Assembly: GCF_000708595.2 (NCBI RefSeq)
Contig: NZ_JARP01000010.1
Location: 1 to 64,000 of the forward strand
Length of the DNA: 64,000 nt
Direction: 5' to 3'
Source: Flavobacterium sp. KJJ
GTDB lineage: Bacteria; Bacteroidota; Bacteroidia; Flavobacteriales; Flavobacteriaceae
Made by a program: the position numbers and the translations under genes. Positions 47,208 through 64,000 of the stretch are shown in pieces. Under the pieces are notes generated by a model that saw only the letters and a program-made list of their open reading frames with translations, did no database searches and was not told where the DNA came from. Numbering within the stretch: the first letter of the stretch is position 1; every line of letters begins with the position of its first letter.

Positions 47208-48764
47208 TTAGTCAGCACCGTCAGTTGTTGCCCTAGCAACTGCAAAAGCGGCCACTTTTTTACCTAAATCTAATCCTTTTTCACAATCACTTCTATAATG
47301 AATAGCTCCGTACATTCTTGAGTTTGATGCTTCTAAAGCCATTGCCTCATATTCCGTTTTTTTAGATGGAATAAAATGTGATAAAACAGTACAAGCAGCT
47401 GCACTAAAAGTAGAATGACCAGAAACATATGCTGGAAAATTAGGAACTCCTGTGGTTGTTTTAATCGAAGGATCCATTTGACACGGACGTGGATTGAAAT
47501 AAGTGTACTTTGCATCCCAGCAGCTAATTGCAGCATCCATCATTGCGACATTTAATAAGGCTAAATTTCTTGCCCATCGAATTTCGCTGTACGATTGTTC
47601 TACAAAAGCTTCACAGGCAATGGCGTTCCAATGTCCGGGAGGTGTGTAAGTATTTACTCCGTCAGCCCAAAAACTGACAATTTCTAAGTGCTCACGAGAA
47701 TTGTCCTGACTGTATCTTTTAATCTCGGCTAATTCTTTTGCAAATACTTCAGATTTTGTTGAAGGAGGTGCAGGCGGACGATTGGCTACCACATCTGCTT
47801 CTGTCATCAAAAATGATTTTACTTTTCCAAATAATGGTAACATTGGCGGCCTGGCTGGTATTTCTAATGATTTCCAAGGAATTTCGCCTGTTGCTGCAGT
47901 TTGAGATTCTAATGCAGCCCAGATCGCCGGTGTTCCACCAGCAACTCCAGCCCCATCATTCGAAGCCCGAGTTATAAATTTTGCAGCAACTTTTCTGCCC
48001 AAACTAATTCCGGCATCAACATCTGAGCGAACATTAGCGCCGCTGATAATACGGTATAGTTTTTCTTCCTCAGCTTTTTCATTTATGTAAGCAATTTCAG
48101 TTGGAAATAATAATTTTAAAAGCTCAACAGTAACCCCCGTCACGACTGCATCTTCTGATGGATATGACGGCAAAGTATTTTTAGGAATTAATACTTGGAG
48201 ACTGGGATCAATAATATATGGTGCTGATCTGTTGTACTGCTTTTTATAATGCCAAGCAGCAATCAGCGCGTCGTATTGAGCGGCACTCACATAAGCATAA
48301 GCCCTCGCTGCATAAGGAGGATTGGAAAATGGAAATTGAGGATACGCAAATGGATTTGCCGCCGAAGGAGCCGGATAAGTTCCATCCTCATTTTGATAAG
48401 GCGGACGATTATGCCTTGCTACCAATGTTCGCATAATTTCATTCCAGCGCAGTACGCTGCCAGCGCTCCAAAATTCTATTATGCTTTTTTGTTGATTGGT
48501 AATATTGACCTGAAAACTTTTAATTTCGTTAATTTCTCTCGTGTAAGCAGGTGTATTTGTGGCAACAGGTACATCTATTGAAAATTCATCAGGTGCAGTT
48601 AAAAGATAAGGCTTCCATGTATCAGCTTCAAGGTCTGTATTTTTAGGGTTCAATTGTGGAAACTGTTCATTTCGTTGCGCAATATCATCATCACAGGAAT
48701 ACATTAGTAGAACTATTAGAAGTATAAGGCCTTTAAAGACGATTTTTTGAATATTATTTTTCAT
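47208..48764 (-). CDS. Vanadium haloperoxidase/PAP2-superfamily lipoprotein
   Basis: A 518-residue lipoprotein (lipobox MYSCDDD; acidic residues after the cysteine suggest surface export). The C-terminal third carries the full vanadate/phosphate-binding signature: K-x6-R-P in KYTYFNPRP (Lys419, Arg426), SGH in YVSGHST (Ser448-His450) and SR-x5-H-x3-D in SRMYGAIHYRSD (Ser482, Arg483, His489, Asp493). These motifs are shared by vanadium-dependent haloperoxidases and PAP2 phosphatases; the long N-terminal helical part favours the haloperoxidase branch, but activity cannot be decided from sequence. It begins 1 nt after the barrel-protein gene and is the last gene of the SusC/SusD-headed set. Confidence 0.82.
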   Translation of the reverse strand: MKNNIQKIVFKGLILLIVLLMYSCDDDIAQRNEQFPQLNPKNTDLEADTWKPYLLTAPDEFSIDVPVATNTPAYTREINEIKSFQVNITNQQKSIIEFWSAGSVLRWNEIMRTLVARHNRPPYQNEDGTYPAPSAANPFAYPQFPFSNPPYAARAYAYVSAAQYDALIAAWHYKKQYNRSAPYIIDPSLQVLIPKNTLPSYPSEDAVVTGVTVELLKLLFPTEIAYINEKAEEEKLYRIISGANVRSDVDAGISLGRKVAAKFITRASNDGAGVAGGTPAIWAALESQTAATGEIPWKSLEIPARPPMLPLFGKVKSFLMTEADVVANRPPAPPSTKSEVFAKELAEIKRYSQDNSREHLEIVSFWADGVNTYTPPGHWNAIACEAFVEQSYSEIRWARNLALLNVAMMDAAISCWDAKYTYFNPRPCQMDPSIKTTTGVPNFPAYVSGHSTFSAAACTVLSHFIPSKKTEYEAMALEASNSRMYGAIHYRSDCEKGLDLGKKVAAFAVARATTDGAD

Positions 48765-48765
48765 C

Positions 48766-49677
48766 TCACTTGTTTTTATTTTTAAAATTTATCAGGTAAA
48801 AAACTCCTCCATATAATGAGCTTGCTTCTCCTACATTTCTGCCTTCCGTTACTACATTATAACCACCTACAATAGCTAATTCAGGAAGTTTTTTTAAAGT
48901 ATATTTTCCATTCAAGCCCAATTTAAAAGCATTCATTGTATTACTTGGGAAAGGCATGTTATTTTTTGTAATGTCAAAACCACCAGATTGTGTAACCGAA
49001 TTGTCAATAATAGCTTCAGCAATTAATCTTGATGAGCGATATCCTAATCTTAAATTAATATTTATAGCATCTGGCATATTTACTTTATTGGTGTAATGAA
49101 TTTCATCTGCCAAATAAGAATTTCGATCAATTGTAATATTCGCTTTTTTAATATAAGCAACAGATAAAGTAGTAAAGAAACGATGATACTGCACATCCCC
49201 CATTAATCGTAAAGTTCCTGTTTTGCTGCCAAGGCCAATGCTTAATGGTAAATAATCTGCCACATAATCTGAGGCAGGCATTGAATAGCTTCCTAATGCA
49301 AATAAGGAATAAGTAAGAGCACCAAAAGTTTTTTTAATTGGCATATATTTCAATGTCAAGGATAAATCCTGAATTCCTTTCTGTCCTTTCATAGTTCCCG
49401 CCGTAGCCTTAGTTTCAAGATAAGGAACAGTAAATAAAAAATTTAGCTTATCAAATATGCCATAATTACACATAAGTGCGGGACCTTGAGCAGATACTGT
49501 TCCTAAATTAAGATTCTCTCTTTTAAAAGTACCTTCCCAGTACTCATTCCAACTGCTATATTCGTATACCGCTCCAAAGCAAAAATTATTTTTGTTCATC
49601 ATAAGGGCATCGATTTCGGTTTGTGCGTTCATCAAAAGAGGAATTAAGAAGAGACAACACAAGTATAATTTCCTCAT
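48766..49677 (-). CDS. Outer-membrane beta-barrel-like protein (MetA/phenol-degradation transporter type)
   Basis: A 303-residue protein with signal peptide ending LMNAQ. The mature part is made of alternating amphipathic strands with Gly/Asn turns (FDKLNFLFTVPYLETKA, LSLTLKYMPIKK, FALGSYSMPASDYVADYLP), like the PF13557 'MetA-pathway' barrel family that may export or import hydrophobic compounds. That assignment is from pattern, not from a search. It is coupled to the haloperoxidase-like lipoprotein gene (1 nt gap) and follows the 1097-residue FG-GAP protein gene by 138 bp. It could pass the small-molecule substrate or product of that enzyme. Confidence 0.6.
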   Translation of the reverse strand: MRKLYLCCLFLIPLLMNAQTEIDALMMNKNNFCFGAVYEYSSWNEYWEGTFKRENLNLGTVSAQGPALMCNYGIFDKLNFLFTVPYLETKATAGTMKGQKGIQDLSLTLKYMPIKKTFGALTYSLFALGSYSMPASDYVADYLPLSIGLGSKTGTLRLMGDVQYHRFFTTLSVAYIKKANITIDRNSYLADEIHYTNKVNMPDAININLRLGYRSSRLIAEAIIDNSVTQSGGFDITKNNMPFPSNTMNAFKLGLNGKYTLKKLPELAIVGGYNVVTEGRNVGEASSLYGGVFYLINFKNKNK

Positions 49678-49815
49678 TATTTATTTTTTTTGGTTAATTA
49701 GAACTATATAAGTCAATAAATTAGCTTAAAGCCAGAACAAGTTAATGTCCTGATTTTAGCAATTAAGTTCAACACGTTTTATTTTTGAAGAGGTATAACA
49801 ATTCAAAACAAAAGC

Positions 49816-52800
49816 TTAATTTATTTTAACACTTTGCAAAAAAGAGTTATTCTTAGTAACCAAGAGGTACGTTTTTCCTTTTACCTTAATTTTTTCCATG
49901 TTTTTAACATCGCCGGGAGTAAAAAATCCGCTGTCAATTGCTGACACTGATCTGAATTTTCCGTGACCATCTCCTTTTAAAAATAATCCGTGACCGGCAT
50001 CGTTTCGAGGCGTTTCAACTTCTGAATTATACATGTTACCCGTTACTAAAACATCAAGTTTACCATCTTTATCGTAATCGTCAACCATTATTTGATTGAT
50101 GCAGGTAAGCTGTGCTTCAACTGGCAGTTCGTGAAGGATGAACTTCCCATTTTTATTTTCTAAATAAATACTGGCAAATGATTTTACTTTATAATGCAGC
50201 GCTTCTTTAAGTGATTTTTCAGTATAAACATCAACCAAAGTGGCTTCTGAAAAACTTTCGTAATCTTTGAATTTCTTTTTGATATTTGGAATTTGCTGAG
50301 ACGAACAACCACGACCGCGCACCGGATATTGTTTACCATCATTGTAGTAACTCAACACAATGTCTTTGTGTTTATTATTGTCGAAATCTTTTACATAAAT
50401 ATCAAAGGTTTCACTAGGAGTTGCTTTGTATTTGTAGTTTAAACCATTGTTTCCAACAATATAATCCATATCGCCATCATGATCAAAATCGCCTTGCTGA
50501 ATGCTCCACCACCAACCTGTTGTATCATCATTAAGTCCCATGTTTTTGGTAACTTCTTTGAAACCCGATACAGTATTTTGAAAAATACGGATTGGCATCC
50601 ATTCGCCAACAATAATAATATCAGCTAATTTGTCATTATTAAAATCGGTAATTACAGCACTTGTCGCCATTCCTAAATTGGTAAATTCTCTAGGTGATTT
50701 TTTAGAAACTTCAAATTTTGGCTGTGTTGGTGAACTTATATTGTGCAATAAATAAGTTGTTGCAGGAGAAGGATATTGCCCCGGAACCTGTCTTCCTAAA
50801 ACTAAAAGATCTTGTTTTCCATCTTTATCATAATCAATAGGATATACTTTTGAACCACTTGTCAGCATCGTTGGCAATACACTTTTTGGAGCTTTTGTAA
50901 AATCGCCTTTTCCGTTATTGAGGTATAGTCTGTCTTGTAATTTTGGGTCGTTAACCAAAAATTCGTAACCACCGCTCACTACATACAAATCATTGTCTCC
51001 GTCATTATCAGCATCGAAAATAACGGCTCCTGTATCTTCACTGGCTTTATCGTCTTCAAGAGTGTGACTGTTTTTTTCTACAAAACCATTTTTAGTCTGC
51101 ATAAATAATTTTCCTGAATAGGTTGCAGATCCTCCAATAAAATAGTCATCCAAACCATCTTTATTTAAATCACCCACAGCAATAGCAGGGCCAAAAGTCG
51201 ACATTTTATGAGGCAATAAAACTTGATCCTTAAAATCATCGTACTTATTTTCTTCGTGTTTATAAACAGGAAAAACGTTGTTTTCAGTCGCGAATAAATG
51301 CGTTTTTGGAGTTGTTTTTACAGCTGGTTCTTCTTTGGCATCTTGCTCCTTAAAGGTTAAAGTCTGATTTACTTTTACATTTGCTAATTTTTGCACTTTA
51401 CCGTTTGACCAGACTACTTTAACCTCATCGACCGTTTTGTCTTTCCCAACACCAAAATGCAATTCAGGCGCTACAGAAGATTGAAACCCTCTGGTTAGCG
51501 TTAGCTCCTGCATCTGGGTTCCTTTTTTCGTTTTTACATAAACACGGTTTCCTAAGCCAAAAGTGTTTTTAGTATTTCCTTTGAAGTTTACTTTGATGTA
51601 ATTATTGCGTTTAGAACTTGAATTTTCAAAAACAGAAGCGTAATCGTCTATATTATTGACAACCAAATCTAAATCACCATCGTTATCTAAATCGACATAA
51701 GCAACACCATTTGAAAAACCTTTATACTCAATTCCCCATTTTTTATTGGCTTGCTCAAAATTTAAATTTCCTTTGTTTTGAAACATAAAATTGTCAATTT
51801 TCTCAGAAGGAATTTCCTGAGATTTCTTAAGTAAATCTTTTGGTTTTAGATTAAGCGCTTCTAAACTATGAAAGAAATCATTGTTATTAATTTCTCTTCT
51901 TGTTCCGTTCGTTACAAACAAATCTTTATTTCCGTCATTATCAAAATCGGCAAATAAAGGTCCCCAGCTCCAATCTGTAGACGAAGTTCCGGTAATACGG
52001 GATACATTGCCAAAATGTGGAATACCATTTTCATTAACTCCTGTATTTAATTGCATGCAATTGTGCATATATTGATAGTTAAAACCAGCATCAACTACAT
52101 CCCAAAAAAGTTTCGGATTCATGCTGGACATGTTTGCTTTCTTACGACGATTATCCTTAGCGTCCATATCAACCTGAAAAACATCTAAATTTCCATCGTT
52201 ATTAAAGTCTGAAATATCCACGCCCATTCCATAAAAAGAATTATGCGCCATTGCCTCTTTTACTACTTCCTTAAAAGTACCATCCTGATTGTTGATGTAC
52301 ATAAAATCTGGAGAGTTGAAATCATTAGACACATAGATATCAGGCCAGCTGTCATTATTTAAATCTCCAATTGTGGCGCTTAATGATAAACCATAGTTTT
52401 TTACACCGGCTTGTTCGGTAACATTGGTAAAATGATTTCCGTCATTTCTATATAAATGTCCCGATTCATTATCCTTTACATGAAGCATCATTTGTACATA
52501 ATCGCCTGTTGCCGAATTGAATTTTGTTGGCGGATAATTCGCTACAAATAGATCTAAATCGCCATCTTTATCATAATCAAAAAAAGTTCCCTGAACACTG
52601 TTTCCTATATCATCAATGCCATATTCTTTGGCTTTTTCTGTAAAAGTTCCGTTATGATTATTTATATATAGTTCATTGTTTTTAGGTCCGAATTTCCCTC
52701 CTACACTACAATAAATATCCAAAAAACCATCACCGTTTACATCGGCCATTGTAACTCCGGTATACCAACGGCTATCACCGCCAACACCTGCTTTTTTTGT

Positions 52801-53109
52801 AATATCCTCAAATTTTAGTTTTCCTTTGTTCAGGTACAATTTATTGGATACCTGATTTCCTGTAAAGAAAATATCTACCAGTCCATCATTGTTAATGTCG
52901 CCGGTAGCAACTCCTCCACCCAAATAAATATAATTGTAGGTGAAGTAATTCAAGGAATCATTTTCTTTCAAATTATTGCTAAAATCAATTCCGGTGTCTG
53001 AACGGTCTAAAGTGGTAAAGATTTTCTCATCTGATTCTTTTGAACAACCAGCAAGCAATACTAAACCCACAAGGCTAAAAGAAATTACTATTGTTTTTAT
53101 ATTTTTCAT
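49816..53109 (-). CDS. FG-GAP/VCBS-repeat and ASPIC/UnbV lipoprotein (1097 residues)
   Basis: A large lipoprotein with lipobox LLAGCSKES and acidic residues after the cysteine. The chain has many FG-GAP/VCBS blades carrying DxDxDG-type calcium loops (DINNDGLVDI, DVNGDGFLDI, DFDNDGNKDL, DADNDGDNDL), which build a beta-propeller of integrin type. The ASPIC/UnbV domain lies near residues 510-595 (NNYIKVNFKGN, GLGNRVYVKTKKG, LTLTRGFQSSVAPELHFGVG). A second propeller follows. Related proteins (CRTAC1-like) are extracellular and recur beside SusC/SusD in Bacteroidota; their ligand is unknown. The gene lies between its 735-residue relative and the barrel-protein gene. Confidence 0.9.
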   Translation of the reverse strand: MKNIKTIVISFSLVGLVLLAGCSKESDEKIFTTLDRSDTGIDFSNNLKENDSLNYFTYNYIYLGGGVATGDINNDGLVDIFFTGNQVSNKLYLNKGKLKFEDITKKAGVGGDSRWYTGVTMADVNGDGFLDIYCSVGGKFGPKNNELYINNHNGTFTEKAKEYGIDDIGNSVQGTFFDYDKDGDLDLFVANYPPTKFNSATGDYVQMMLHVKDNESGHLYRNDGNHFTNVTEQAGVKNYGLSLSATIGDLNNDSWPDIYVSNDFNSPDFMYINNQDGTFKEVVKEAMAHNSFYGMGVDISDFNNDGNLDVFQVDMDAKDNRRKKANMSSMNPKLFWDVVDAGFNYQYMHNCMQLNTGVNENGIPHFGNVSRITGTSSTDWSWGPLFADFDNDGNKDLFVTNGTRREINNNDFFHSLEALNLKPKDLLKKSQEIPSEKIDNFMFQNKGNLNFEQANKKWGIEYKGFSNGVAYVDLDNDGDLDLVVNNIDDYASVFENSSSKRNNYIKVNFKGNTKNTFGLGNRVYVKTKKGTQMQELTLTRGFQSSVAPELHFGVGKDKTVDEVKVVWSNGKVQKLANVKVNQTLTFKEQDAKEEPAVKTTPKTHLFATENNVFPVYKHEENKYDDFKDQVLLPHKMSTFGPAIAVGDLNKDGLDDYFIGGSATYSGKLFMQTKNGFVEKNSHTLEDDKASEDTGAVIFDADNDGDNDLYVVSGGYEFLVNDPKLQDRLYLNNGKGDFTKAPKSVLPTMLTSGSKVYPIDYDKDGKQDLLVLGRQVPGQYPSPATTYLLHNISSPTQPKFEVSKKSPREFTNLGMATSAVITDFNNDKLADIIIVGEWMPIRIFQNTVSGFKEVTKNMGLNDDTTGWWWSIQQGDFDHDGDMDYIVGNNGLNYKYKATPSETFDIYVKDFDNNKHKDIVLSYYNDGKQYPVRGRGCSSQQIPNIKKKFKDYESFSEATLVDVYTEKSLKEALHYKVKSFASIYLENKNGKFILHELPVEAQLTCINQIMVDDYDKDGKLDVLVTGNMYNSEVETPRNDAGHGLFLKGDGHGKFRSVSAIDSGFFTPGDVKNMEKIKVKGKTYLLVTKNNSFLQSVKIN

Positions 53110-53136
53110 ATTATGGATTCTAATAAATTTATTTTT

Positions 53137-55344
53137 TTAAATACAAATCGGAGAATGTGCTTCGACGGTTGAAAAAAGAATTCTTTTAATATCTATTTTG
53201 GAGAAATTATCTTCGCCTTCAATAATTTTAATGTATTGATTTGGTTTTACATTTTTAAAGACTTTTTTCTTTTGGTCTTTCGGCCAGGTAATTTCGATTT
53301 GGTCTATCGTTGTCGCTTTTCCAATTCCGATTTCCATTCTTAAAGCCGACGCTCCAAAGCTGCCACCTGAGTTTAAGATCCTGTAGAGAGATCGGGAAAC
53401 TCCATTTTCTTTGAAAGTGACTTTTACTTTTGTTCCAATAGCAGAACGATTACTTTCTGTTCCTTCTAACTTCAATTTTATCCAACGGTTGTTGTTTTGA
53501 CCCGGATTTAGGTATAAAGAATTACTGAAAGAATCCCCTAAATAAGCACCTCCGACTTCTATAAAAATATCGTTGTCTCCATCATTATCCAGATCATTAA
53601 TAGCTACACCATGTCCTTTTTGCAAATTTCCTACTCTGCCGGAAACAGTAACGTCAGCAAATTTTCCATTGCCCATATTTCTAAATAATCTATTTGGTGC
53701 CAGTGATCTATAGTCGGGATTTCCTGTTCCGAGGTACATATCCAGAAAACCATCATTATCAATATCTCCGAAATTGGAACCCATAGCAAATACAGTTTTG
53801 CTTAATCCAGATATTTCAGAAACATCAGAGAAAGTGCCATCATGATTGTTATGGTACAAATACATTTTACTGCTTTCATTTGGAATATTCAGGGCTTCCA
53901 TTGCAATTTCTCCAGCAATAGAGCCATTATACTGATAACCACAAACAAATATATCCTGCCATCCATCGTTATCATAATCCCAAAACCAGGTTGGAAAAGT
54001 CATTACATTAATGCCCGCCAAGCCTGCCTGATCTGTAACATCTTTAAATTGCGGAATACCCTTTTTGAGTCCAGTATTTTTTAATAATGTTTTTCTTTTA
54101 TTCATTCCGGAGAGGAACAAATCAATATCGCCATCATTATCATAATCAGCTGACGTTACACCTTTTATATAAGCAATAACATCACATTTTGCTGCTTTGG
54201 CAACATTGGTAAAGGTTCCGTCCTGATTATTTAGGTACAATTCTGAAGGATAGGATTCATTATCTGATGATTCATTTCCAATAAACAAATCGAGATAACC
54301 GTCATTATTAAAATCATTCCACGTACCGGCTTGGGTAGGGAATTCAGAATATAAACCACTCTTTAGGGTTACATCAGTAAAAGTTCCGTCTCCGTTGTTG
54401 CGTAGCAGCGAGTTTGGTTGTCTTCCGTATTTACGCATCCAGGCACCTCTCAAAACAAAAATATCAATATCGCCGTCATTGTCATAATCAGCTTGTATCA
54501 TGTTTAATCCTCCTTTGAAACGGCCTATTTCTGAAACTTTAGAATAATCGAGATATTTTCCTTTTTTATCATTTTCATAATAATGCATCACGCCATCCAG
54601 ACTCCAGTCAGAAGTTACAATATCCAGATAGTTATCGTTATTAAAATCATCAACAATAACTCCACCTGACATATTTCTGCCTATTATGCCTGCGTTTGCG
54701 GCTATATCCAGAAAAGGTTTTATGCTGTATCCTGAATCTTTATTCAGGTTAGGTATGAGCCATTGTTTGGGAACTTCTAAAGGATAACCGCCGAGCGTCA
54801 TATAAGCAATATTGAGAAGCCATCTTGATTCATAATCATTAGGGTCAATCGATAATAATTTCTTATAAATTTCAATTGCTTTTTGAGACCCCTGTCGTAT
54901 CGTATGAATTCCATTTTTTTGGATAGGCATAGTACAGGATTCGGGATTATGATAATTCACACAATTTTGTTTTTCGCCTAATCTCATGTACGCAATGGCT
55001 AAAAATTTTAACGATTGAATATCTTCTTTTCCGTCTATTTTCTTCTTTCTATTTATGGCATTTTCTATAGTTGCTACAGACTCTGCCTCTTTTCCAAGTT
55101 TTAATAATGCATTTCCTTTATTTATTTCATTAAATAATTTAAAAAAACCTTCATCTGAACTTTTAATAATAGAGTCGTAATATGCTACTTCTGCTTTTGC
55201 TGCAAAAGGATTGTCTTTGACGTTATACATCTTATTTCTTGCTTCCAAAATCTTAACCATCTTGTCATTTGGATTCGAAAAATAATCACAGGACTGGGTT
55301 AAAATAAATAGGCTAAATAGCGATACTAACTGTTTGATTTTCAT
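53137..55344 (-). CDS. FG-GAP/VCBS and ASPIC/UnbV lipoprotein with N-terminal helical region (735 residues)
   Basis: A lipoprotein (lipobox TQSCDYF). Residues about 25-210 form a helical, TPR-like region (NAINRKKKIDG, LKFLAIAYMRLGEKQ, YKKLLSIDPNDYESRWLL). Residues about 220-610 are FG-GAP/VCBS blades with calcium-loop motifs (DFNNDNYLDI, DYDNDGDIDI, DNDGFLDMYLG). The ASPIC/UnbV domain follows at about 625-715 (RWIKLKLEGTESNRSAIGTKV, LNSGGSFGASALRMEIGIG). The domain order differs from the 1097-residue neighbour, in which ASPIC is in the middle. Probably surface-exposed and calcium-dependent; the function is unknown. Confidence 0.9.
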   Translation of the reverse strand: MKIKQLVSLFSLFILTQSCDYFSNPNDKMVKILEARNKMYNVKDNPFAAKAEVAYYDSIIKSSDEGFFKLFNEINKGNALLKLGKEAESVATIENAINRKKKIDGKEDIQSLKFLAIAYMRLGEKQNCVNYHNPESCTMPIQKNGIHTIRQGSQKAIEIYKKLLSIDPNDYESRWLLNIAYMTLGGYPLEVPKQWLIPNLNKDSGYSIKPFLDIAANAGIIGRNMSGGVIVDDFNNDNYLDIVTSDWSLDGVMHYYENDKKGKYLDYSKVSEIGRFKGGLNMIQADYDNDGDIDIFVLRGAWMRKYGRQPNSLLRNNGDGTFTDVTLKSGLYSEFPTQAGTWNDFNNDGYLDLFIGNESSDNESYPSELYLNNQDGTFTNVAKAAKCDVIAYIKGVTSADYDNDGDIDLFLSGMNKRKTLLKNTGLKKGIPQFKDVTDQAGLAGINVMTFPTWFWDYDNDGWQDIFVCGYQYNGSIAGEIAMEALNIPNESSKMYLYHNNHDGTFSDVSEISGLSKTVFAMGSNFGDIDNDGFLDMYLGTGNPDYRSLAPNRLFRNMGNGKFADVTVSGRVGNLQKGHGVAINDLDNDGDNDIFIEVGGAYLGDSFSNSLYLNPGQNNNRWIKLKLEGTESNRSAIGTKVKVTFKENGVSRSLYRILNSGGSFGASALRMEIGIGKATTIDQIEITWPKDQKKKVFKNVKPNQYIKIIEGEDNFSKIDIKRILFSTVEAHSPICI

Positions 55345-55395: not shown

Positions 55396-56886
55396 TCAAT
55401 TCTCCGCTATCGTTTCGGGAGTTTTATTTCCGATATGGATATTATAAAACTTCCATTCCTGATGTGCTACATTTCTGCCCAGCTTTAGTCCTTCAACATT
55501 ATCAGACTGAATATGGTAACCGCCCATTACTCTTGAGATTCCGGCCATATTTGCCGTTTCGGTTAAAGTGTTGAACTTCAAAACAACTTTCTTTCCTAAA
55601 TTATCCGGTTCTGTCATAGCTCCTGATACCAATTCTGCAGATTGACCAAATGCATCGCTGCCTGTCCATAATCTTAAAGCTTCTGCACAACCACCACTTA
55701 TCGTACTGTGACCTGAAACATAACTCGGAAAAGGCGGACATAAAAAGGTGTCTGGAGAATAAGGTCTCCATTCTTCTCCCTGCATGGTAATCATTCCCTT
55801 TCCAGGACCTCCCCAAGCAGTAATCGTTTTACCGCCGTAATAGAAATGTACTAAGGCATTTGGTCTGGATGAATCATAAAACATTTTGGTATCCCAACAG
55901 GCAATAAAACAGTCCATCGCTGTTATCTGATTTAAAAAATACATTTTAACGTCCTGATCTAAAGTGTGATTGTCTCTTCTTGAAATATCCTGCGCAAATC
56001 TTAACCAGTGTCCGGCTTGCTGAACAGATTTTGGTCCGTCTCTCATAAATTCAACCAGTGCTTTGTCTTCATCCGTTAATTTGGCCTGTAAAGCAATAAC
56101 TTCATCCACTTCATTTTTAAGTTTTTCTGAACCAAATAACGGTGGCGGAACAGCACGGAATTGGTCTCCTGATTTCAATCCGACTGGTTTTACTCTATTC
56201 CAAAAAGGAGTTAAACAAGCGGGAGCAAATTTTCCACCTTTTCCATCAGAAAAATATTTAGGCTGCCAGTGATTAATATCATTTAGTTGATCAACTGTAT
56301 TTACAGGCGAATATTTAGTGTAATCAAAAAATGGTTTTCCGTTAGAACCTTCTTCTTCCGCATATTGATTCGAACCGTCTCCTCTTCTTGCCGCGATTAC
56401 CGCTTTGGCCGCCAGATTACCAATTCCTTCTGGCGTTTTTGGATCTAAGGAAGTATTTGTTGGATCATAGCCTAATTCTTTCATGTAAGAAGCAAATAAC
56501 GCTTTATCACTATAATAATATTCGCATAGCGCTCCATACGCTGCGTAACTTATCGCAATTTCTTTATTTTTTAAATTTTGCTCTTTTTTAGGTCTTCTTT
56601 TAATATCCGTTAAATATACCGGAATTGCTTTTTCGTCATAACGGCTCCATGCATCAAAAATAGCTACGAAAGTCAATCCCAAAAAGCGTGAAGTTACAGT
56701 GGGTCTTGGTCTAAATCTGTCTGTATCATTTGCAGTTGCTTGAACTGCCATTTCTCCCCATTTATAGGCTAAATTATTTTTTCCTGTTGGTTCGGCAATT
56801 TGATTTTTGTCTTTAACTTGTGCAAACGTATTTACGCTTAAAGCACTAAAAAGTAGCACTTTAAACAAAAATTTATAAATTTTCAT
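55396..56886 (-). CDS. Vanadium haloperoxidase/PAP2-superfamily exported protein
   Basis: The ATG at 56886 starts a signal peptide (hydrophobic core, NTFAQ); the longer frame begins with TTG. The 496-residue protein has all three vanadate/phosphate-pocket motifs: KMFYDSSRP (Lys334, Arg341), YVSGHST (Ser391-His393) and SRVMGGYHIQSD (Ser451, Arg452, His458, Asp462). The extended N-terminal half with RPRPTVTSRFLGLTFVAIFDAW is typical of bacterial vanadium-dependent haloperoxidase-like proteins. Unlike the copy at 47208-48764 it lacks a lipobox, so it is soluble in the periplasm or secreted. Substrate (halide oxidation or phosphoester) is undecided. Confidence 0.85.
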   Translation of the reverse strand: MKIYKFLFKVLLFSALSVNTFAQVKDKNQIAEPTGKNNLAYKWGEMAVQATANDTDRFRPRPTVTSRFLGLTFVAIFDAWSRYDEKAIPVYLTDIKRRPKKEQNLKNKEIAISYAAYGALCEYYYSDKALFASYMKELGYDPTNTSLDPKTPEGIGNLAAKAVIAARRGDGSNQYAEEEGSNGKPFFDYTKYSPVNTVDQLNDINHWQPKYFSDGKGGKFAPACLTPFWNRVKPVGLKSGDQFRAVPPPLFGSEKLKNEVDEVIALQAKLTDEDKALVEFMRDGPKSVQQAGHWLRFAQDISRRDNHTLDQDVKMYFLNQITAMDCFIACWDTKMFYDSSRPNALVHFYYGGKTITAWGGPGKGMITMQGEEWRPYSPDTFLCPPFPSYVSGHSTISGGCAEALRLWTGSDAFGQSAELVSGAMTEPDNLGKKVVLKFNTLTETANMAGISRVMGGYHIQSDNVEGLKLGRNVAHQEWKFYNIHIGNKTPETIAEN

Positions 56887-57031
56887 TTTTGGTTGGTTTA
56901 TATGGTTGTTAAATAGCTTTCTTTTCAATTAGAATTAATTGAAGTTGTATGTTAAATTGTAGAACAAAGCGATTAACCCTCCGTAAAAACTAAAGATTAA
57001 ACGCATCTACAATTTAGCATTCAATGAAATG

Positions 57032-57574
57032 CTATACCATATCTGGAGGTGGATAATTTGTAGTAAAATATCCTGAAAGAAGATTTTTTTGTGGAGAATA
57101 TGAATTTAAGGCAACAGTAGAAACTAATTTTACAGAAGTACTTATTAATAATACTGTGTTACTTTGAATGTAGTCCTGAAGGAAGGATTTTAATAACTTT
57201 TTGCCTGGATTTTCTTTATTTGAATTGTCATCAAATAACTGACTGTCAACAATCTTTTTTAAATTTTTATTTAAAGCTTCATTATGAGAACTTTTTAAGC
57301 AATATAATTTTAAAACATTGTTTTGAATTCTTTTCTTAAAGACATGATAGGTTTTATTGTTGATTAAGAAGTCTTCGTTTGTATCTTCAATACCAGAATC
57401 AACAACATAAGCATAAGGGTTGATTTTAACTTCAATTATTTCAAAATTTGCGTTGTCAGTTTTCTCCATAGCATTCACCCACACTTGCTCTTGTTGTTCA
57501 GCAAACGTGATATAAAATCCTAGAACATTATAAAACAATGTTACGATTAAAAAAAGTGAAGCAATCCTTTTCAT
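57032..57574 (-). CDS. Orphan exported or membrane-anchored protein, 180 residues
   Basis: I do not recognise this protein. It begins with a hydrophobic signal (MKRIASLFLIVTLFYNVLGF) and has a second, weaker hydrophobic stretch near residues 140-155. The middle is polar with several Asn/Lys-rich helices. It ends in a proline-rich tail (TTNYPPPDMV), a style seen in small Bacteroidota exported proteins encoded near TonB receptors. It lies between SusD and the soluble haloperoxidase-like gene. A hairpin at 57727-57752 and a 229-bp gap separate it from SusD. Confidence 0.55.
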   Translation of the reverse strand: MKRIASLFLIVTLFYNVLGFYITFAEQQEQVWVNAMEKTDNANFEIIEVKINPYAYVVDSGIEDTNEDFLINNKTYHVFKKRIQNNVLKLYCLKSSHNEALNKNLKKIVDSQLFDDNSNKENPGKKLLKSFLQDYIQSNTVLLISTSVKLVSTVALNSYSPQKNLLSGYFTTNYPPPDMV

Positions 57575-57752: not shown

Positions 57753-57803
57753 GCCAAATACTAACTTAACTAACTCAAACTAACAAACTTCAATAATCCT
57801 CAC

Positions 57804-59291
57804 CTAGTAGCCAGGATTGTTATCACTAGGTTTTATATTTGGATTAGAAGATGTTTCTCTATTAGGGATAGGCCATAATTCGCTTCTACCTACTTTAAAA
57901 CCAGTACCTGCAAGCTCAGTACTAGCTATACCCCATCTTATTATATCATCAAAACGAACTTGCTCGCCAGCTAATTCTACTTTGCGTTCATGAATAAGAG
58001 CTGTAAACACCTGATCTTTTGTAAGTGTTAATGCCAATAATGGTACGCCTGCTCTAAGACGAACCTGATTAATGTAGCCAATAGCGGTTGCTTGTACACC
58101 TCCGGGTCTCATGCTTTCGCATTCTGCCATCATAAGCAATACATCTGAATAGCGCATTACTTTGAAGTTGATGCTTGAATCCAGATTTTCATCAGTACGT
58201 TTATAGTAATTTTGATATTTTTTCCAGCCTGCTCTTCTTAGACCTTCAGATGAAGAGAAATTAGCAGCTGTCATTGTATTAGCTCCATTGTTATATTTAG
58301 ATCCTGGTACGTAGAAAGTATCTCCAAAACGTTTATCACCCACCTCGTATGAATCTAATAAATTATCAGACGGATACACATTGTACCAGCCTAAATTACC
58401 ATACTCCTGACCTCTAAGTGTAGATTCAGCCACACCGTCTCCTGCAGTATCACTACCCCATTTATCAGCTACTCCTAATTTTTCATCATATTCAATCTCA
58501 AAAATTGATTCCGGACCATGCTCGGTTTCATCCATGAAATTGTTATAAAAATTAGTTTCTAAACTAAATCCAGTAACTTTATTAAAAGCAGTCAAAGCTT
58601 CGTCATATTTCTTTTGATACAAAAGTGCTTTTCCTAAATAAGCAAAAGCAGCTTCTTTAGTCGCTCTACCCTTATCTTCTACATTTTTGCTCAATAGATT
58701 TTTAGACGCAAAATCAAAATCATCAGTGATTAATTTATAGATTTCTGCCTTAGGACTTCTTGGTGCACCCACAATAGTTTGTTTGGTATAAATAGGCAAA
58801 TCACCAAAACGAGGTACTAAAAGAAAGTAATAGTAGGCTCTTAAAAAATGAGCTTCACCTAAAAATTTATTCTTTTTCTCTTGTGTCAAAACTGAATTAG
58901 GCAAAGCCTGAATCTTCTCTTCGTTATCTAAGACAAAATTAGCTTTGGAAATTCCTAAAAAACAGGTTTCCCAATAAAACTGAATGATATCGCTACTTGC
59001 ATCAAAAGAAAAATCAAGGAAAGGTTTTTTGTTACCTTCTAACTGTGGGTTTCCTTTGTTTTCCTGAGCCATATTGTCTAAAGCAAAGAAAATATGTCTG
59101 GCATAGAGTCCTCTTGTTTGCAGATTTGCGTAGGCTGCATTTACTGAAGATTGTACCTGTGCTTCCGATTTAAAGAAAGTTTCAGGGGATAACTGATTTG
59201 GATTTGTTAATTCCAGATCATTATCGTTACATGAATTTATTGTTAAGATCCCTAACAATACTACAACTATATATTTTATTTTTCTCATCAT
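57804..59291 (-). CDS. SusD/RagB family outer-membrane lipoprotein
   Basis: A 495-residue lipoprotein (lipobox INSCNDND; acidic residues follow). SusD features: NPNQLSPETFFKSEAQVQSSVNAAYANL near residue 32 onwards, helix region AHFLRAYYYFLLVPRFGDLPI near 150 and the C-terminal HERKVEL / VRFDDIIRWG signature near 430. It should cap the SusC barrel encoded 11 bp upstream and bind the substrate at the surface. Since the rest of the locus has haloperoxidase/PAP2-like and ASPIC/UnbV proteins but no glycosidase, the ligand may not be a plain polysaccharide. Confidence 0.95.
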   Translation of the reverse strand: MMRKIKYIVVVLLGILTINSCNDNDLELTNPNQLSPETFFKSEAQVQSSVNAAYANLQTRGLYARHIFFALDNMAQENKGNPQLEGNKKPFLDFSFDASSDIIQFYWETCFLGISKANFVLDNEEKIQALPNSVLTQEKKNKFLGEAHFLRAYYYFLLVPRFGDLPIYTKQTIVGAPRSPKAEIYKLITDDFDFASKNLLSKNVEDKGRATKEAAFAYLGKALLYQKKYDEALTAFNKVTGFSLETNFYNNFMDETEHGPESIFEIEYDEKLGVADKWGSDTAGDGVAESTLRGQEYGNLGWYNVYPSDNLLDSYEVGDKRFGDTFYVPGSKYNNGANTMTAANFSSSEGLRRAGWKKYQNYYKRTDENLDSSINFKVMRYSDVLLMMAECESMRPGGVQATAIGYINQVRLRAGVPLLALTLTKDQVFTALIHERKVELAGEQVRFDDIIRWGIASTELAGTGFKVGRSELWPIPNRETSSNPNIKPSDNNPGY

Positions 59292-59302
59292 CTTTTTATA
59301 AA

Positions 59303-62300
59303 TTAAAATGTAACATCAAGTCCAAAAATTACTGATTTTGGTTGTGGATATCTGCCTATATCAATTCCGGCAGAATTTGCATTAGTATCTACACGTGCAA
59401 CTTCAGGATCTAAACCAGAATAATTTGTAATTGTAACAAGATTTTGCGCACTTACATAGAATCTTATATGTGAAAAATAGCTGTTAAAGGCTTCTCCTGA
59501 AAAGGTATATCCTATAGTAACATTTTTTAATCTTGTGTAAGAACCATCTTCAACATATCGTTGGCTTGCAGAAGACCAGTTTTGGCCTGCCCCAAGTGCT
59601 CTTGGTAATGTAGCCGATGAATTAGTAACCACTCCATTTTGAACAATTGATCGATCTAAAACATCTGTACTTGCATTAAACAAACGTGACATAGCTTCTA
59701 GGTCAAACTTATTTGCATTAAAAACATCATTCCCCTGAACTCCTGTTATAAAGCAGTTAAAATCGAACTTTTTATATGCAGCTGTAAGGTTTAAGCCATA
59801 TGTAAAATCAGGATATGGATTTCCTATATTAGTTTTATCATCAGAGTTAATTACTTTGTCTCCATTGCGATCTACAAACCTAATATCACCAGGTTGTATA
59901 GTAGTTTGGCCAGCCCCTAAAGCAGCATCTACTTCTGCCTGATTTTGATAAATCCCGTTGGTTTGATACCCGTAAAAATAGAATAATGGCTGACCAACTT
60001 CCAATCTTGAGAAATTCTCTAGACCTGCTCTTACTGCCGGACCAGCTAAGACACTAGTTACACCGGGAGCTAAACCTGTTACTTCGTTTTTGCTTGTTCC
60101 CAAATTTGCTATAGCAGACCAGGTAAAATCGCCTTTTCTGTCATTGTATCCAAGTGACAGTTCAAATCCGTGCACTTTTACATCGGCAACATTTTGAATT
60201 TGAGTTCCTCCACCAGCTGAACCTACAGAAGCAGGAAGCGGTACTGCGAAAAGAATATCGCTGCTTTTATTATTAAAATATTCGACAGATCCTGTGAATT
60301 TTTCATCAAACAATCCAAAGTCCAAACCTATGTTTCTGTCATTTTTAGACTCCCATTTCAAATCCGGATTTGCAGCTCTTCCTGCAGTAACACCAGCTCC
60401 TGCAGCTCCGTTAAACGGATATGTATAATTTGCTGCCAACGATGAACTGTATTGATAATCGTCTATTCTGTCGTTACCTGTTGTACCTGTACTCGCTCTA
60501 AGCTTCAATGTGCTAAAAACAGAATCGGTCATAAAACTTTCTTTTGCAATATTCCAACCTAAAGCAACAGAGTAGAAATTACCATAGCGGTTATTAGATC
60601 CAAAACGAGAAGAAGCATCTCGGCGACCTGAAACTGCAAGCAGGTATCTCTCATCGTAATCATAATTAATACGGGCTATGTAACCTAAATTATTAGCCTC
60701 AATATTACTAGAACTCAAATTGGCATCTTGTAGTCGCAACTGGTCTATTTCATTTGAAATATAGTAACGGCTGCTAGCTATTAAATTCTGGCTCTTATTC
60801 TCAATTTTAGTTATAACCCCTAATACTTCTAAATTATGTTTAGAAGCAAAAGTAGTTTTGTATGTTAAACTGTTATCAAAAACAATGGTTTGTCCCTGAG
60901 AATTTGTTTCAGCAGTAGACGAATACGCCTGTTTATGTGCTGAACCATCTTCGTAACCTGGAATAAAAGTGTGATCTTGACTTGTATAATAATCTAAGGA
61001 AACCTGTGATCTGAATTTTAATCCTTTAAAAATTTGCAATTCAGCATAAATGTTTCCTATTATAGATAACCCCTTAATTGTTTGGTATCCTAAATTTGCT
61101 ACACGTACAGGGTTTTCTGCATCCTGTCCATCAGCTGTAGATGGGCCTTGGTAACCTCCTACATTATCTGCATTATAAACTGGCAAATACGGCGCCATTT
61201 TAATAGCATGTTCTAATAATGTTCTACCTCCTGAAGCACGTTCTGGATTAGTTTTGCTGAATGACAATCCAATATTACTGCCAACAGTTAATTTACCTAT
61301 ATTTTGTGTATTATTGGCTCTGAAAGAGTAACGTTCAAAACCTGTACTGATAACAGCTCCATCTTGTTTTAAATATTCTGCAGAATAACGACTTGTAGCA
61401 TTCTCGGTACCATTTGAGAAACTTAAATTATAATCCTGCATTATGCCACTCTGAAAGATTTCGTCCTGCCAGTCTGTATTTATATTCCCAAATTGAGCAG
61501 CTCTTGCACTTACATCGCTCCCTAAATCTTTAGCATATTGTAAATATTGTTGTGTATTTAAAACATCGTATCTTTTAGTAATAGTTTGAAAACCTGTGTA
61601 AGTATTAAAATTTAGTTGCCCAGGACCTTTTTTCCCTTTTTTGGTAGTTACCATAATGACCCCGTTAAAAGCTTTAGAACCGTATAAAGCTGTTGTTGAG
61701 GCATCTTTTAAAACCGACATCGATTCAATATCATTAGGACTCAAGCCAGATAAATTACCTGTCAAAACTCCATCGATAACATATAAAGGAGCACTATTTC
61801 CCATTGTAGCCAAACCACGAATAGTAACTGTAGGGCTTGAACCAGGCGCGCCATTTACAACGGTAACACCAGCTGCTCTACCCTGTAAAGCCGACTCTGC
61901 ATTTGTAATAGGAACTGCTGTAATATCTTTTGAACTTACTGTCGAAATTGCTCCTGTTACTTTAGTTCTCTTTTGAGCACCATACGCTACGACAACTTCT
62001 TGTAAGTTTTGTGCAGATTCTACTAATGTAACATTAATTGTTGTACGAGTCCCCACTGTAATAGTCTGTGTAACCAAGCCAACAAAAGAAAACGTTATTC
62101 TATCAGTAGGATTCACTCCATTTAAAGAGTATTTACCATCAAAATCTGTAGAAGCGCTAATTTTGGAACCTTCTACAATTACACTGGCACCAGGCAAAGG
62201 AAACCCTGAGGGATCGATAACCACACCCTGTATGGTCTTTGATTGTGCCATCACATTCTGATAGCTTATCATTAGCAATGCGATTATTGCAAATTTTAAT

Positions 62301-62311
62301 TTTAACATCAT
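59303..62311 (-). CDS. SusC/RagA family TonB-dependent receptor
   Basis: A 1002-residue outer-membrane receptor. Signal peptide ends near NVMAQ; the carboxypeptidase-regulatory-like domain is at about 25-105 (IQGVVIDPSGFPLPGASVIV), the plug starts with VVVAYGAQKRTKVTGAI and includes VTIRGLATMG and VLKDASTTALYGSKAFNG. The barrel ends in a Phe-terminated strand (VIFGLDVTF). It imports the ligand captured by the adjacent SusD, driven by TonB. A hybrid two-component regulator gene stands directly upstream on the same strand, the usual arrangement for a substrate-responsive locus. Confidence 0.96.
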   Translation of the reverse strand: MMLKLKFAIIALLMISYQNVMAQSKTIQGVVIDPSGFPLPGASVIVEGSKISASTDFDGKYSLNGVNPTDRITFSFVGLVTQTITVGTRTTINVTLVESAQNLQEVVVAYGAQKRTKVTGAISTVSSKDITAVPITNAESALQGRAAGVTVVNGAPGSSPTVTIRGLATMGNSAPLYVIDGVLTGNLSGLSPNDIESMSVLKDASTTALYGSKAFNGVIMVTTKKGKKGPGQLNFNTYTGFQTITKRYDVLNTQQYLQYAKDLGSDVSARAAQFGNINTDWQDEIFQSGIMQDYNLSFSNGTENATSRYSAEYLKQDGAVISTGFERYSFRANNTQNIGKLTVGSNIGLSFSKTNPERASGGRTLLEHAIKMAPYLPVYNADNVGGYQGPSTADGQDAENPVRVANLGYQTIKGLSIIGNIYAELQIFKGLKFRSQVSLDYYTSQDHTFIPGYEDGSAHKQAYSSTAETNSQGQTIVFDNSLTYKTTFASKHNLEVLGVITKIENKSQNLIASSRYYISNEIDQLRLQDANLSSSNIEANNLGYIARINYDYDERYLLAVSGRRDASSRFGSNNRYGNFYSVALGWNIAKESFMTDSVFSTLKLRASTGTTGNDRIDDYQYSSSLAANYTYPFNGAAGAGVTAGRAANPDLKWESKNDRNIGLDFGLFDEKFTGSVEYFNNKSSDILFAVPLPASVGSAGGGTQIQNVADVKVHGFELSLGYNDRKGDFTWSAIANLGTSKNEVTGLAPGVTSVLAGPAVRAGLENFSRLEVGQPLFYFYGYQTNGIYQNQAEVDAALGAGQTTIQPGDIRFVDRNGDKVINSDDKTNIGNPYPDFTYGLNLTAAYKKFDFNCFITGVQGNDVFNANKFDLEAMSRLFNASTDVLDRSIVQNGVVTNSSATLPRALGAGQNWSSASQRYVEDGSYTRLKNVTIGYTFSGEAFNSYFSHIRFYVSAQNLVTITNYSGLDPEVARVDTNANSAGIDIGRYPQPKSVIFGLDVTF

Positions 62312-62600
62312 ATTAATTGGTTTTTTGTTTAGTTTAAATAATTATTTGGTTGTAAAGTTTTTGCTATTTATGCACTGAGACAATTTATTTTTTACGTTAT
62401 TTTTCTGCCCTTAAAATTTTTGAAAATAAGAATACGATTTTCATTGATTTTATATTTTCCCAAATCCTAAAGTGTTGGTTTTAAAATTTGATTGAGAAAA
62501 AAATGGACTGTTCAATACACAAAAATTAGTTTCATTTCATGTTTTTAATTGGTTTAAAATTGTTAGTAATGTTTTCATGGTTATTGATGTTTAGTTAACT

Positions 62601-62608
62601 CAAAAATA
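62601..62608 (-). promoter_or_regulatory. Possible -7 box of the susC-led operon
   Basis: TATTTTTG on the minus strand fits TAnnTTTG. The region 19 bp upstream offers only TGTG as -33 element, so this is a weak prediction; HTCS-activated promoters may have poor -33 boxes. Confidence 0.35.
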
Positions 62609-62915
62609 TAACGTTAACATAAATTTCACATACTACATATGATGCAAAAACTATCAAATTTGTAGCACAAGAGTTAAAAAAACGAACAAAATCAACATTT
62701 AGCTTTTATTTACTAAACAAAATAAAATTCCTATTTTGGTAATTATGAACCATTATTTTTCATGCATTCATAAATTAAATAAGAATTAATATTGATTTAA
62801 TAATCACCCAAAAAGTATAGAATCACATAAAACTTAATTATTTATACTTTACATTTATTTCTATTCCTATAATTTTCCTTTTTATTTTTCATTTTGCCTG
62901 TCTGTAAAAAACAAA

Positions 62916-62937
62916 AAGACGGCATAAAAGCCGTCTT
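62916..62937 (-). terminator. Intrinsic terminator of the hybrid two-component regulator gene
   Basis: AAGACGGC (62916-62923) and GCCGTCTT (62930-62937) form a perfect 8-bp stem with a 6-nt loop. On the minus strand a T-rich tract (TTTGTTTTTT) follows. It starts 20 nt after the stop at 62958. Confidence 0.85.
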
Positions 62938-62957
62938 GGAATAATTTAAAAAATGCA

Positions 62958-64000
62958 TTATTTTTTGTTGTGAGTGGGCAGATAACCGTATTTATCTTTA
63001 TAACATTTTGTAAAATACGAAGGAGAACTAAACCCAACTTTATAACTAATTTCGGTTATATTGTCATTGCCAAATTCTATTAATTCTTTAGCTTTTTCTA
63101 AACGCACATTTCGAATAAATTCATTTACTGATACACCTGTTAGTGTCTTAATTTTTCGATACAATTGGCTTCTGCTCAAAAACACTTTCGAAGCTAAATC
63201 TTCAACACTTAATTCCGTCTCATTAATATTTCCATTTATATAATGCAATACATTTTTTATAAAATCATTATCTAGAGTAGTTGTTTTTTCTTTTGCTTTT
63301 GGTGTAATTCCGTTATAGAATTTATTAAACATAATTTGCCTGCTATTAATCAATTGCACCAGACTCGATCTTAAAATATCCATGTCAAAAGGTTTGCTTA
63401 AGTACATATCTGCACCCGAATCAATACCTTCTAATCGATCTTTTACCAATGCTTTTGCAGACAACATCATTAACGGAATATGACTGGTTTTTAAATCGGC
63501 CTTAATACTTTTACACAATTCTAAACCATTCATAACAGGCATAATTACATCTGTTAAAATTAAATCAGGCAATTTCTGCAAAGCTAATTCTAAACCAACC
63601 TGACCATTCTCTGCTACTAAAACTTTATACTCTTTTTTGAGTTCATTTTTTAAATAATTTCTAAGTTCGACATTATCTTCAACTATTAAAATAGTGTAAA
63701 TTCGATCTTGTTTTTCTTCATTTTCCTCTGATTGGGTTTCCGCTTTTTCTATAACAGGCGTGAAACTCATTTTTTTCTCCTTTTTAAAATCCTCAAGTAA
63801 TATTTCACTTTCATTAAAAAACTCTTTTCCAATGGGAAATAATAATTTAAAAGTAGTACCAACTCCCAATTCACTTTCTACTTCGATCATTCCTTTATGC
63901 AATTCTACAAAACCGCGTACTACTTCCAAACCTATGCCGGTACTTCCATAATAAGCTTTATTTAAATTGTTAACCTGATAGAAACGGTCAAAAATTCTCT
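62958..64000 (-). CDS. Hybrid two-component system regulator, C-terminal part (cut by window edge)
   Basis: The frame is open to the window edge, so the gene starts beyond 64000. In reading order it shows the end of a histidine-kinase ATPase domain (IFDRFYQVNN, YYGSTGIGLEVVRGF, VGTTFKLLFP), a response-regulator receiver with phospho-acceptor Asp in DLILTDVIMPVMNG and switch Lys in YLSKPFD, and a C-terminal AraC-type DNA-binding domain (LSVEDLASKVFLSRSQLYRK, ISYKVGFSSPSYFTKCY). Such one-protein regulators sense a ligand in the periplasm and activate an adjacent SusC/SusD locus. The sensor part is not visible. It likely switches on the set from 62311 downward. Confidence 0.93.
   Translation of the reverse strand, partial: RIFDRFYQVNNLNKAYYGSTGIGLEVVRGFVELHKGMIEVESELGVGTTFKLLFPIGKEFFNESEILLEDFKKEKKMSFTPVIEKAETQSEENEEKQDRIYTILIVEDNVELRNYLKNELKKEYKVLVAENGQVGLELALQKLPDLILTDVIMPVMNGLELCKSIKADLKTSHIPLMMLSAKALVKDRLEGIDSGADMYLSKPFDMDILRSSLVQLINSRQIMFNKFYNGITPKAKEKTTTLDNDFIKNVLHYINGNINETELSVEDLASKVFLSRSQLYRKIKTLTGVSVNEFIRNVRLEKAKELIEFGNDNITEISYKVGFSSPSYFTKCYKDKYGYLPTHNKK

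Follow-up and report, generated by a model that had tools for sequence, protein, structure and literature searches.

We analysed the first 64 kb (hereafter the window) of an 86-kb contig, NZ_JARP01000010.1, from the 4.6 Mb genome of Flavobacterium sp. KJJ, and examined a block of genes near its end in which a SusC/SusD pair is followed by two enzymes resembling vanadium haloperoxidases and by two large lipoproteins of the FG-GAP/ASPIC type. All nine genes listed in a preliminary description of this DNA were found at the given place and on one strand, the minus strand, the order of transcription being HTCS (hybrid two-component system regulator), SusC, SusD, ORPH180, VHPO1, ASPIC735, ASPIC1097, BARREL and VHPOlip, and then a gene for a glycoside hydrolase (GH) of family 3. 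Protein families were assigned by Pfam/NCBIfam profile scans of the window proteins with a family cut-off of E ≤ 0.001; the features of the block are as follows.

62958..64000, minus strand: HTCS regulator, C-terminal part (HATPase_c, Response_reg, HTH_18)
59303..62311, minus strand: SusC/RagA TonB-linked outer-membrane transporter, 1002 aa (TIGR04056, 852.6 bits)
57804..59291, minus strand: SusD-like lipoprotein, 495 aa (PF07980, PF14322; lipobox by eye)
57032..57574, minus strand: ORPH180, 180 aa, with an N-terminal helix and a C-terminal PPP; its relatives accompany lipoprotein-haloperoxidase modules elsewhere
55396..56928, minus strand: VHPO1, 510 aa, vanadium haloperoxidase-like, signal peptide, no lipobox (DUF6851 + VCPO_2nd + PAP2)
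53137..55344, minus strand: ASPIC735 lipoprotein (weak TPR matches near the N-terminus, FG-GAP, UnbV_ASPIC; lipobox by eye)
49816..53109, minus strand: ASPIC1097 lipoprotein, CRTAC1-like (FG-GAP, UnbV_ASPIC; lipobox by eye)
48766..49677, minus strand: BARREL, 303 aa, possible outer-membrane barrel, with relatives immediately ahead of VHPOlip
47208..48764, minus strand: VHPOlip, 518 aa, lipoprotein, vanadium haloperoxidase-like (PAP2 6.2e-14; nearest solved chain 4cit)
44788..46953, minus strand: GH3 enzyme directly downstream of VHPOlip, after a gap of 254 bp
62916..62937, minus strand: terminator-like hairpin and T-run after HTCS (8 pairs, 5 GC)
62601..62608, minus strand: TAnnTTTG-like -7 element upstream of SusC (weak match)

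The window edge cuts the HTCS gene, which in full encodes 1373 aa (G000:C10 62958-67079) and is separated from SusC by 646 bp. From SusC to VHPOlip the intergenic gaps are 11 (SusC-SusD), 229, 103, 51, 27, 138 and 1 bp. A hairpin lies after HTCS and none of the ten listed terminator-like sites in the scan of 46900-63000 falls in a gap after the SusC start, which would fit a single operon from SusC to VHPOlip; the ten sites compare with 9.2 in shuffled sequence, i.e. no excess. No -33 element was found with the TAnnTTTG-like site upstream of SusC, TAnnTTTG being what we take to be the Bacteroidota -7 element, and the two-part Bacteroidota promoter pattern occurred in none of the seven gaps. As in a polysaccharide utilization locus (PUL), the SusC and SusD homologues are adjacent, a dedicated HTCS regulator is present and glycoside hydrolases, lyases or esterases lie in or beside the locus. 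SusD, both ASPIC proteins and VHPOlip are predicted surface lipoproteins, their N-termini after the lipobox cysteine resembling what we assume to be surface-export signals.

The core of this block is conserved across genomes, in agreement with the preliminary description, which had treated the genes as one set. A scan of one genome per species gave 127 VHPO1 relatives, of which the best 80 were kept (18 Flavobacterium and 62 other loci); the presence of VHPO1 itself in every compared Flavobacterium locus follows from its being the query. Among these 80, all 18 Flavobacterium loci share the order SusC-SusD-orphan-VHPO1-ASPIC1097; L035 and L050 have one more ASPIC gene, lying between SusD and the orphan. 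ASPIC1097 is thus found in all 18 and ASPIC735 in 17, being missing in L106, whose sole ASPIC protein (1092 aa) is of the 1097 type (81% by blastp). HTCS is present in 16 of the 18; L050 ends at a contig edge, and L037 has none in the 4.5 kb covered upstream of SusC. BARREL-VHPOlip follows the core in five loci (L041-L045), and 11 others carry a second, distant SusC/SusD pair (~29% and ~24% identity) at that position. In six loci without BARREL-VHPOlip (L019, L021, L035, L040, L046 and L048), a 400-aa protein and a DoxX/DUF417-like protein precede the second SusC, and the two members of the 400-aa family that were scanned had no Pfam match. The SusCD-linked VHPO1 sequences, 19 of the 85 in the tree, form one clade with support 98/94, recovered in 96% of 200 bootstrap trees, and the closest named relatives of the window VHPO1 are from Flavobacterium. 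In the 62 non-Flavobacterium loci, of which 42 had full 10-kb flanks on both sides, the orphan was found within 8 kb of VHPO1 in none. When four loci were compared, VHPO1 looked mosaic, being closest to L036/L035 (84–85%) and just 78% to L039/L040, and SusC, SusD, the orphan and both ASPIC proteins were closest to L040 or L039 (88–97%), as if VHPO1 might have been replaced by recombination.

The two enzymes were described initially as one soluble and one lipid-anchored protein with vanadate/phosphate-pocket motifs, and this holds: VHPO1 has a signal peptide with no lipobox, and VHPOlip is a lipoprotein. VHPO1, whose probable start is an ATG 14 codons into its open reading frame (ORF), contains DUF6851 (3.2e-54), VCPO_2nd (2.2e-18) and PAP2 (2.3e-7) domains, the VCPO_2nd match being above the Pfam cut-off; that of VHPOlip (4.6e-4 over 26 residues) is below it. 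Over residues ~77–502, VHPO1 aligns with the solved haloperoxidases 9ptr (2.2e-52), NapH3 (2.3e-51), 9l8x (5e-47) and NapH1 (3.8e-42). VHPOlip matches 4cit (1e-15; residues 148–510, with the catalytic motifs kept), which we take to be the vanadium-dependent haloperoxidase from Zobellia, and more weakly the acid phosphatases 7f17/7f18 (8.5e-8). A PAP2 acid phosphatase would match phosphatases best; for both enzymes the best solved matches are haloperoxidases. Using K-x6-RP, SGH and SR-x5-H in that order as the vanadate pocket signature, we found K348, FPSYVSGHS and SR465 in VHPO1 and K419, FPAYVSGHS and SR482 in VHPOlip. The complete K-R-SGH-R-H pocket is present in 89/89 VHPO1-type ORFs, 26/27 VHPOlip-type ORFs and 18 of 21 ORFs of at least 400 aa of a ~440-aa type, with some genomes counted twice in these totals. 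From their closest solved chains and complete pockets, the PAP2-like proteins look like vanadium haloperoxidases over phosphatases and would be expected to load vanadate. In locus L232, a tandem second VHPOlip copy (L232:6534-8042) has no SGH motif and is perhaps a non-catalytic paralogue.

Both FG-GAP proteins belong to the UnbV_ASPIC family, with scores of 82.9 and 55.5 bits against a cut-off of 23.4, and ASPIC1097 matches CRTAC1 (9etn) at 4.2e-20. D-x-[DN]-x-D-[GN]-x-x-D loops, which we presume to be of the calcium type, number seven in ASPIC735 and 11 in ASPIC1097, the two calcium-loop propeller lipoproteins of the preliminary description. ORPH180 and BARREL matched no Pfam/NCBIfam family at the cut-off used, and an NCBIfam scan of 16 orphan relatives gave nothing convincing. 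The orphan family has diverged strongly, its members sharing 16–53% identity with the window copy; an N-terminal helix and, close to the C-terminal end, an invariant PP are common to 16/16 relatives. AlphaFold gave no usable model of ORPH180 (pLDDT 52) or BARREL (mean pLDDT 25). The gene described as a barrel protein is present, and its identity as a barrel is weakly supported: BARREL reaches DUF5777 at E 0.017, and three of 21 relatives match Phenol_MetA_deg (PF13557) at E ≤ 0.1 (best 9.1e-8), a family that the window BARREL does not match and whose name is no proof of a role with phenol. A PDB profile search with the 21 barrel relatives gave nothing convincing.

The preliminary description had further stated that no glycoside hydrolase or lyase is present, the haloperoxidase-type enzymes standing instead of glycosidases. 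This is true of the nine-gene block itself and fails immediately outside it. The next gene downstream is the GH3, and beyond the window edge, directly upstream of HTCS and on the same strand (G000:C10 67287-76364), lie a GH97 (647 aa), a GH3 with PA14 (864 aa), a SASA + Esterase protein (905 aa) and a GH43 with GH43_C2. The absence of glycosidases was therefore a window-edge effect, and we have ruled out a glycosidase-free locus. A GH3 downstream of the block in L019, L038 and L041–L044 is 89–93% identical to that of the window. We then determined the proximity of GH genes to VHPO1 in 22 related genomes, comprising 20 of Flavobacterium type together with G391 and Christiangramia, these two having been added after GH genes were seen near their VHPO1. 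In 11/22 genomes VHPO1 has a GH10 no more than 50 kb away on its contig, whereas the number of GH10 genes and the size of the genomes lead one to expect 1.1; simulation gave 0/200,000 for this proximity, a p value that overstates independence because the expectation ignores kinship. The upstream-type GH3 (GH3up) lies within 30 kb of VHPO1 in 16/22 genomes, and any of GH10, GH3up or a listed GH43 in 20/22. In F. frigidarium a 635-aa GH10 protein is the next gene after ASPIC (L106 15032-16939, E 1.3e-88), with three further GH10 and one GH43 within 30 kb. The VHPO1 of Christiangramia oceanisediminis has a GH10 at a distance of 4.2 kb and a GH43 at 5.5 kb, and the opposite strand of the same 21 kb carries ASPIC735 (45%) and SusD/SusC (52% and 50%), no more than 10 kb away. 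The preliminary description had counted against its own proposal a glycosidase regularly present in homologous loci with the haloperoxidase genes as unlinked neighbours. Glycosidases are indeed regular there; the haloperoxidase genes, however, do not stand as unlinked neighbours, since their order with SusCD is kept throughout the Flavobacterium loci.

Elsewhere in the window, positions 6612-24149 hold a separate PUL with SusCD (by HMM labels), GH20, GH92 and an FAD-dependent oxidoreductase, suggestive of an N-glycan-type locus. A DUF255/Thioredox_DsbH protein lies near the block (40790-42907), and a thioredoxin-like family of ~700 aa occurs near it in L020, L021, L031 and L106.

Parts of the block recur more widely in Bacteroidota. 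FG-GAP/ASPIC lipoproteins of ~1100 aa were found in 115 of 395 sampled genomes, and we examined 20 kb around the best ASPIC1097 match in 60 genomes chosen by score (G391 was excluded, as its locus L031, with ASPIC beside VHPO1, was already among the VHPO1 loci). In 39/60 loci a SusC-like gene precedes ASPIC on its strand by no more than 8 kb, a same-strand haloperoxidase is present within 4 kb in 15/60 and within 700 bp in 13/60, and both SusC and haloperoxidase are present in 12/60; the G304 locus has neither in its 20 kb, and adding it gives 39, 15 and 12 of 61. Loci L190, L203 and L205 are tight SusC-SusD-ASPIC-haloperoxidase-FG-GAP operons. With a few haloperoxidase genes among ~4,500, we roughly estimate chance adjacency of ASPIC and haloperoxidase at well below 1%. 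Neighbours of the ASPIC-haloperoxidase loci include GH3 (L190), GH5 and GH35 (L193), a fucosidase and GH3 (L196) and GH20 (L201), and in L235 an esterase with a BD-FAE domain directly follows the haloperoxidase. GMC oxidoreductase was matched by two of 60 scanned neighbour proteins, one of them in L212, where it lies just upstream of a SusC-SusD-ASPIC-haloperoxidase operon (L212:17228-18940) and is a possible H2O2 source. A multihaem cytochrome with an MtrC-like match (L190:4014-5228) lies near another such operon, and cytochrome c7 was matched by three of the 60 neighbour proteins.

A second module was seen around VHPOlip, which, with its shorter relatives, is matched in 48/395 Bacteroidota genomes. 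Among the top 20 orthologues by score from other genomes, a barrel gene lies directly before VHPOlip, within 100 bp, in 20/20 loci, the orphan shares the strand and is no more than 8 kb away in 16/20 (iterated profile; distant members are 16–23% identical to the window copy) and a soluble haloperoxidase is nearby in 5/20. As the parts of this module (orphan, soluble enzyme, barrel and lipoprotein enzyme) recur together elsewhere, the window locus looks like the module wrapped around the ASPIC genes and placed behind SusCD.

Taken together, this is a genuine, conserved combination, in which the PUL frame is ordinary and the haloperoxidase content unusual. The preliminary description had suggested a non-standard ligand such as a polyphenol-linked or phosphorylated polymer; with glycosidases regular nearby and the haloperoxidase order with SusCD kept, a phenolic-decorated hemicellulose seems a likelier ligand than a non-glycan polymer. 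Our favoured reading, held tentatively and with somewhat less than even confidence, is that the locus is a hemicellulose (xylan-type) PUL with a built-in haloperoxidase cassette, using H2O2 and halide on phenolic decorations. It draws on the core order, the single clade, the complete pockets, the haloperoxidase best matches, the GH proximity, the esterases (upstream of the window block and in L235) and the GH neighbours of the ASPIC-haloperoxidase pairs in L193 and L196. HTCS would sense a hemicellulose fragment and switch on the operon, and SusD, both ASPIC proteins and VHPOlip would hold the polymer at the cell surface. Soluble, presumably secreted VHPO1 and anchored VHPOlip would make hypohalous acid from H2O2 and a halide (bromide, iodide or chloride), and this acid may oxidize or halogenate electron-rich phenolics (ferulate, lignin stubs) on arabinoxylan. 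The polymer thus loosened would be open to GHs and esterases, SusCD would take in the resulting oligosaccharides, and the barrel may pass small hydrophobic products. H2O2 is assumed to come from the plant oxidative burst or from an oxidase encoded elsewhere. The available text of PMC11791322 suggests that a fungal vanadium haloperoxidase acts on lignocellulose and reports chlorinated lignin fragments, and that of PMC9804872 describes halodecarboxylation of ferulic acid by vanadate chloroperoxidase.

Several findings weigh against this reading. The block yielded no H2O2-producing oxidase. In the alignments 9ptr and NapH3, which among solved chains are the best relatives of VHPO1, lack the SGH histidine, so kinship alone is no proof of haloperoxidase activity. 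VHPO1 is patchy, being present in 11/395 Bacteroidota genomes and 4/24 listed genomes of the same genus, and it often occurs where there is no PUL: in the 62 non-Flavobacterium loci a SusC-like gene lies within 8 kb in 16 and an ASPIC gene in seven. Without G391 and Christiangramia the proximity counts fall to 10/20 for GH10, 15/20 for GH3up and 18/20 for any of the three families, in genomes that are related; the single GH10 of the window genome sits on another contig, and G202 has no GH10, GH3up or GH43 nearby (its contig ends ~11 kb upstream of VHPO1). A same-strand SusC lies within 8 kb of barrel-VHPOlip in 1/20 loci, and barrel-VHPOlip was also seen near trehalase (L220, L227) and GH65 (L220, L222). 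GH3 accounts for four of 74 proteins at 15 ASPIC loci without a haloperoxidase and five of 60 at 15 with one, which is no clear difference; we therefore rejected the idea that haloperoxidase presence raises GH content, and the GH context appears to belong to SusCD-ASPIC loci generally.

Some of these observations would suit a role in protection or competition, which we regard as rather doubtful: the haloperoxidases would use up H2O2 from plants or microbes and release hypohalous acid around the feeding cell, leaving the polymer untouched. One anchored and one soluble enzyme would make a suitable surface shield, VHPOlip modules occur mostly without SusCD, VHPO1 lacks a SusC within 8 kb in 46 of the 62 non-Flavobacterium loci (20 of the 62 have incomplete flanks), and in PMC9296495 a Zobellia iodoperoxidase gene shows raised expression on a brown alga and is considered alongside stress responses. 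Such a role leaves unexplained the fixed SusD-to-ASPIC position in all 18 loci and the separate SusC-ASPIC-haloperoxidase operons. The same operons (12/60), together with the constancy and single clade of the core, speak against chance assembly, in which a mobile haloperoxidase module would merely sit beside a PUL with its own unrelated role; that the orphan-(haloperoxidase)-barrel-VHPOlip set stands alone in several families, and that BARREL and VHPOlip occur in just five of 18 Flavobacterium loci, leaves this unlikely explanation some room.

Were the enzymes instead extracellular phosphatases, acting on a phosphorylated glycan or in phosphate acquisition, their shared fold superfamily, the match of VHPOlip to 7f17/7f18 and the phosphatase activity reported for a fungal chloroperoxidase in the available text of PMC4859513 would all be accommodated. 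The haloperoxidase best matches of both enzymes (4cit and 9ptr) set back a simple phosphatase reading, VHPO1 carries the VCPO second bundle domain, and the motif FPxYxSGH, whose spacing we take to mark haloperoxidases, stands here against ESYPSGH of 7f17; we judge phosphatases to be very unlikely. Just as improbable, in our view, is acquisition of halide, iodine or halogenated compounds, with iodide or bromide oxidized for uptake and the product imported by SusCD or the barrel. The FG-GAP loops of presumed calcium type would be in keeping with such a process. According to PMC5064120, Arenibacter C-21 depends on glucose, oxygen and calcium to take up iodine, a glucose oxidase plus haloperoxidase has been proposed, and five or more PAP2 genes in its genome resemble that of the Zobellia enzyme, which is 4usz. 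Among the nine genes, however, the Pfam/NCBIfam scans recognized no dehalogenase or halide transporter, SusCD lies among GHs, and nothing points to halide specificity.

PULs are usually seen as working by hydrolysis or lysis, and the vanadium haloperoxidases of bacteria chiefly as enzymes of natural-product pathways or algal settings. Judging from their gene content, these Flavobacterium may attack plant cell walls by oxidation besides hydrolysis. More broadly, and as a conjecture more probably wrong than right, Bacteroidota might have widespread oxidative PULs, in which SusC-SusD-ASPIC-haloperoxidase operons couple surface hypohalous-acid chemistry to TonB-dependent uptake and FG-GAP/ASPIC lipoproteins serve as calcium-dependent scaffolds joining enzyme and polymer, the bacterial equivalent of the way in which fungal haloperoxidases attack lignin-carbohydrate material. 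A conserved operon uniting PUL and haloperoxidases would add to the turnover of plant polymers by soil- and plant-associated Bacteroidota a step that is oxidative and yields organohalogens, and would be a context in which ideas on the ~1100-aa FG-GAP/ASPIC lipoproteins could be tested. Among the top matches of broad searches of the open-licence literature we found no description of the SusCD-ASPIC-haloperoxidase combination, and the accessible text of PMC11892949 has no occurrence of ‘haloperoxidase’.

For the proposed mechanism the nearest analogy is the fungal (Curvularia) vanadium chloroperoxidase, likewise a secreted haloperoxidase of a plant-polymer dweller, which is without SusCD coupling and whose own lignocellulose role is ‘suggested’ (PMC11791322). 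VHPOlip has its catalytic motifs in common with the Zobellia galactanivorans vanadium iodoperoxidase (4cit/4usz) but is a lipoprotein of ~520 aa paired with a barrel-like protein, and in size the Zobellia enzyme is approached more closely by the ~440-aa haloperoxidases encoded in SusCD-ASPIC operons. VHPO1 shares its alignment and the VCPO second bundle domain with the NapH-type enzymes (NapH1, NapH3) and 9ptr/9l8x, yet keeps SGH where NapH3 reads SGF and 9ptr SAS. ASPIC735 and ASPIC1097 have UnbV_ASPIC and FG-GAP repeats in common with CRTAC1 and other ASPIC-UnbV FG-GAP proteins, and differ from CRTAC1 in being bacterial lipoproteins of 735 and 1097 aa within a SusCD operon. With HTCS-regulated xylan/hemicellulose PULs the locus shares HTCS, SusC, SusD, lipoproteins after SusD, GH3/GH43/GH97, an esterase and sometimes GH10. 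The place in which such a PUL would be expected to have a glycan-binding protein and an endo-enzyme is taken here by two haloperoxidase-type enzymes and two FG-GAP/ASPIC lipoproteins.

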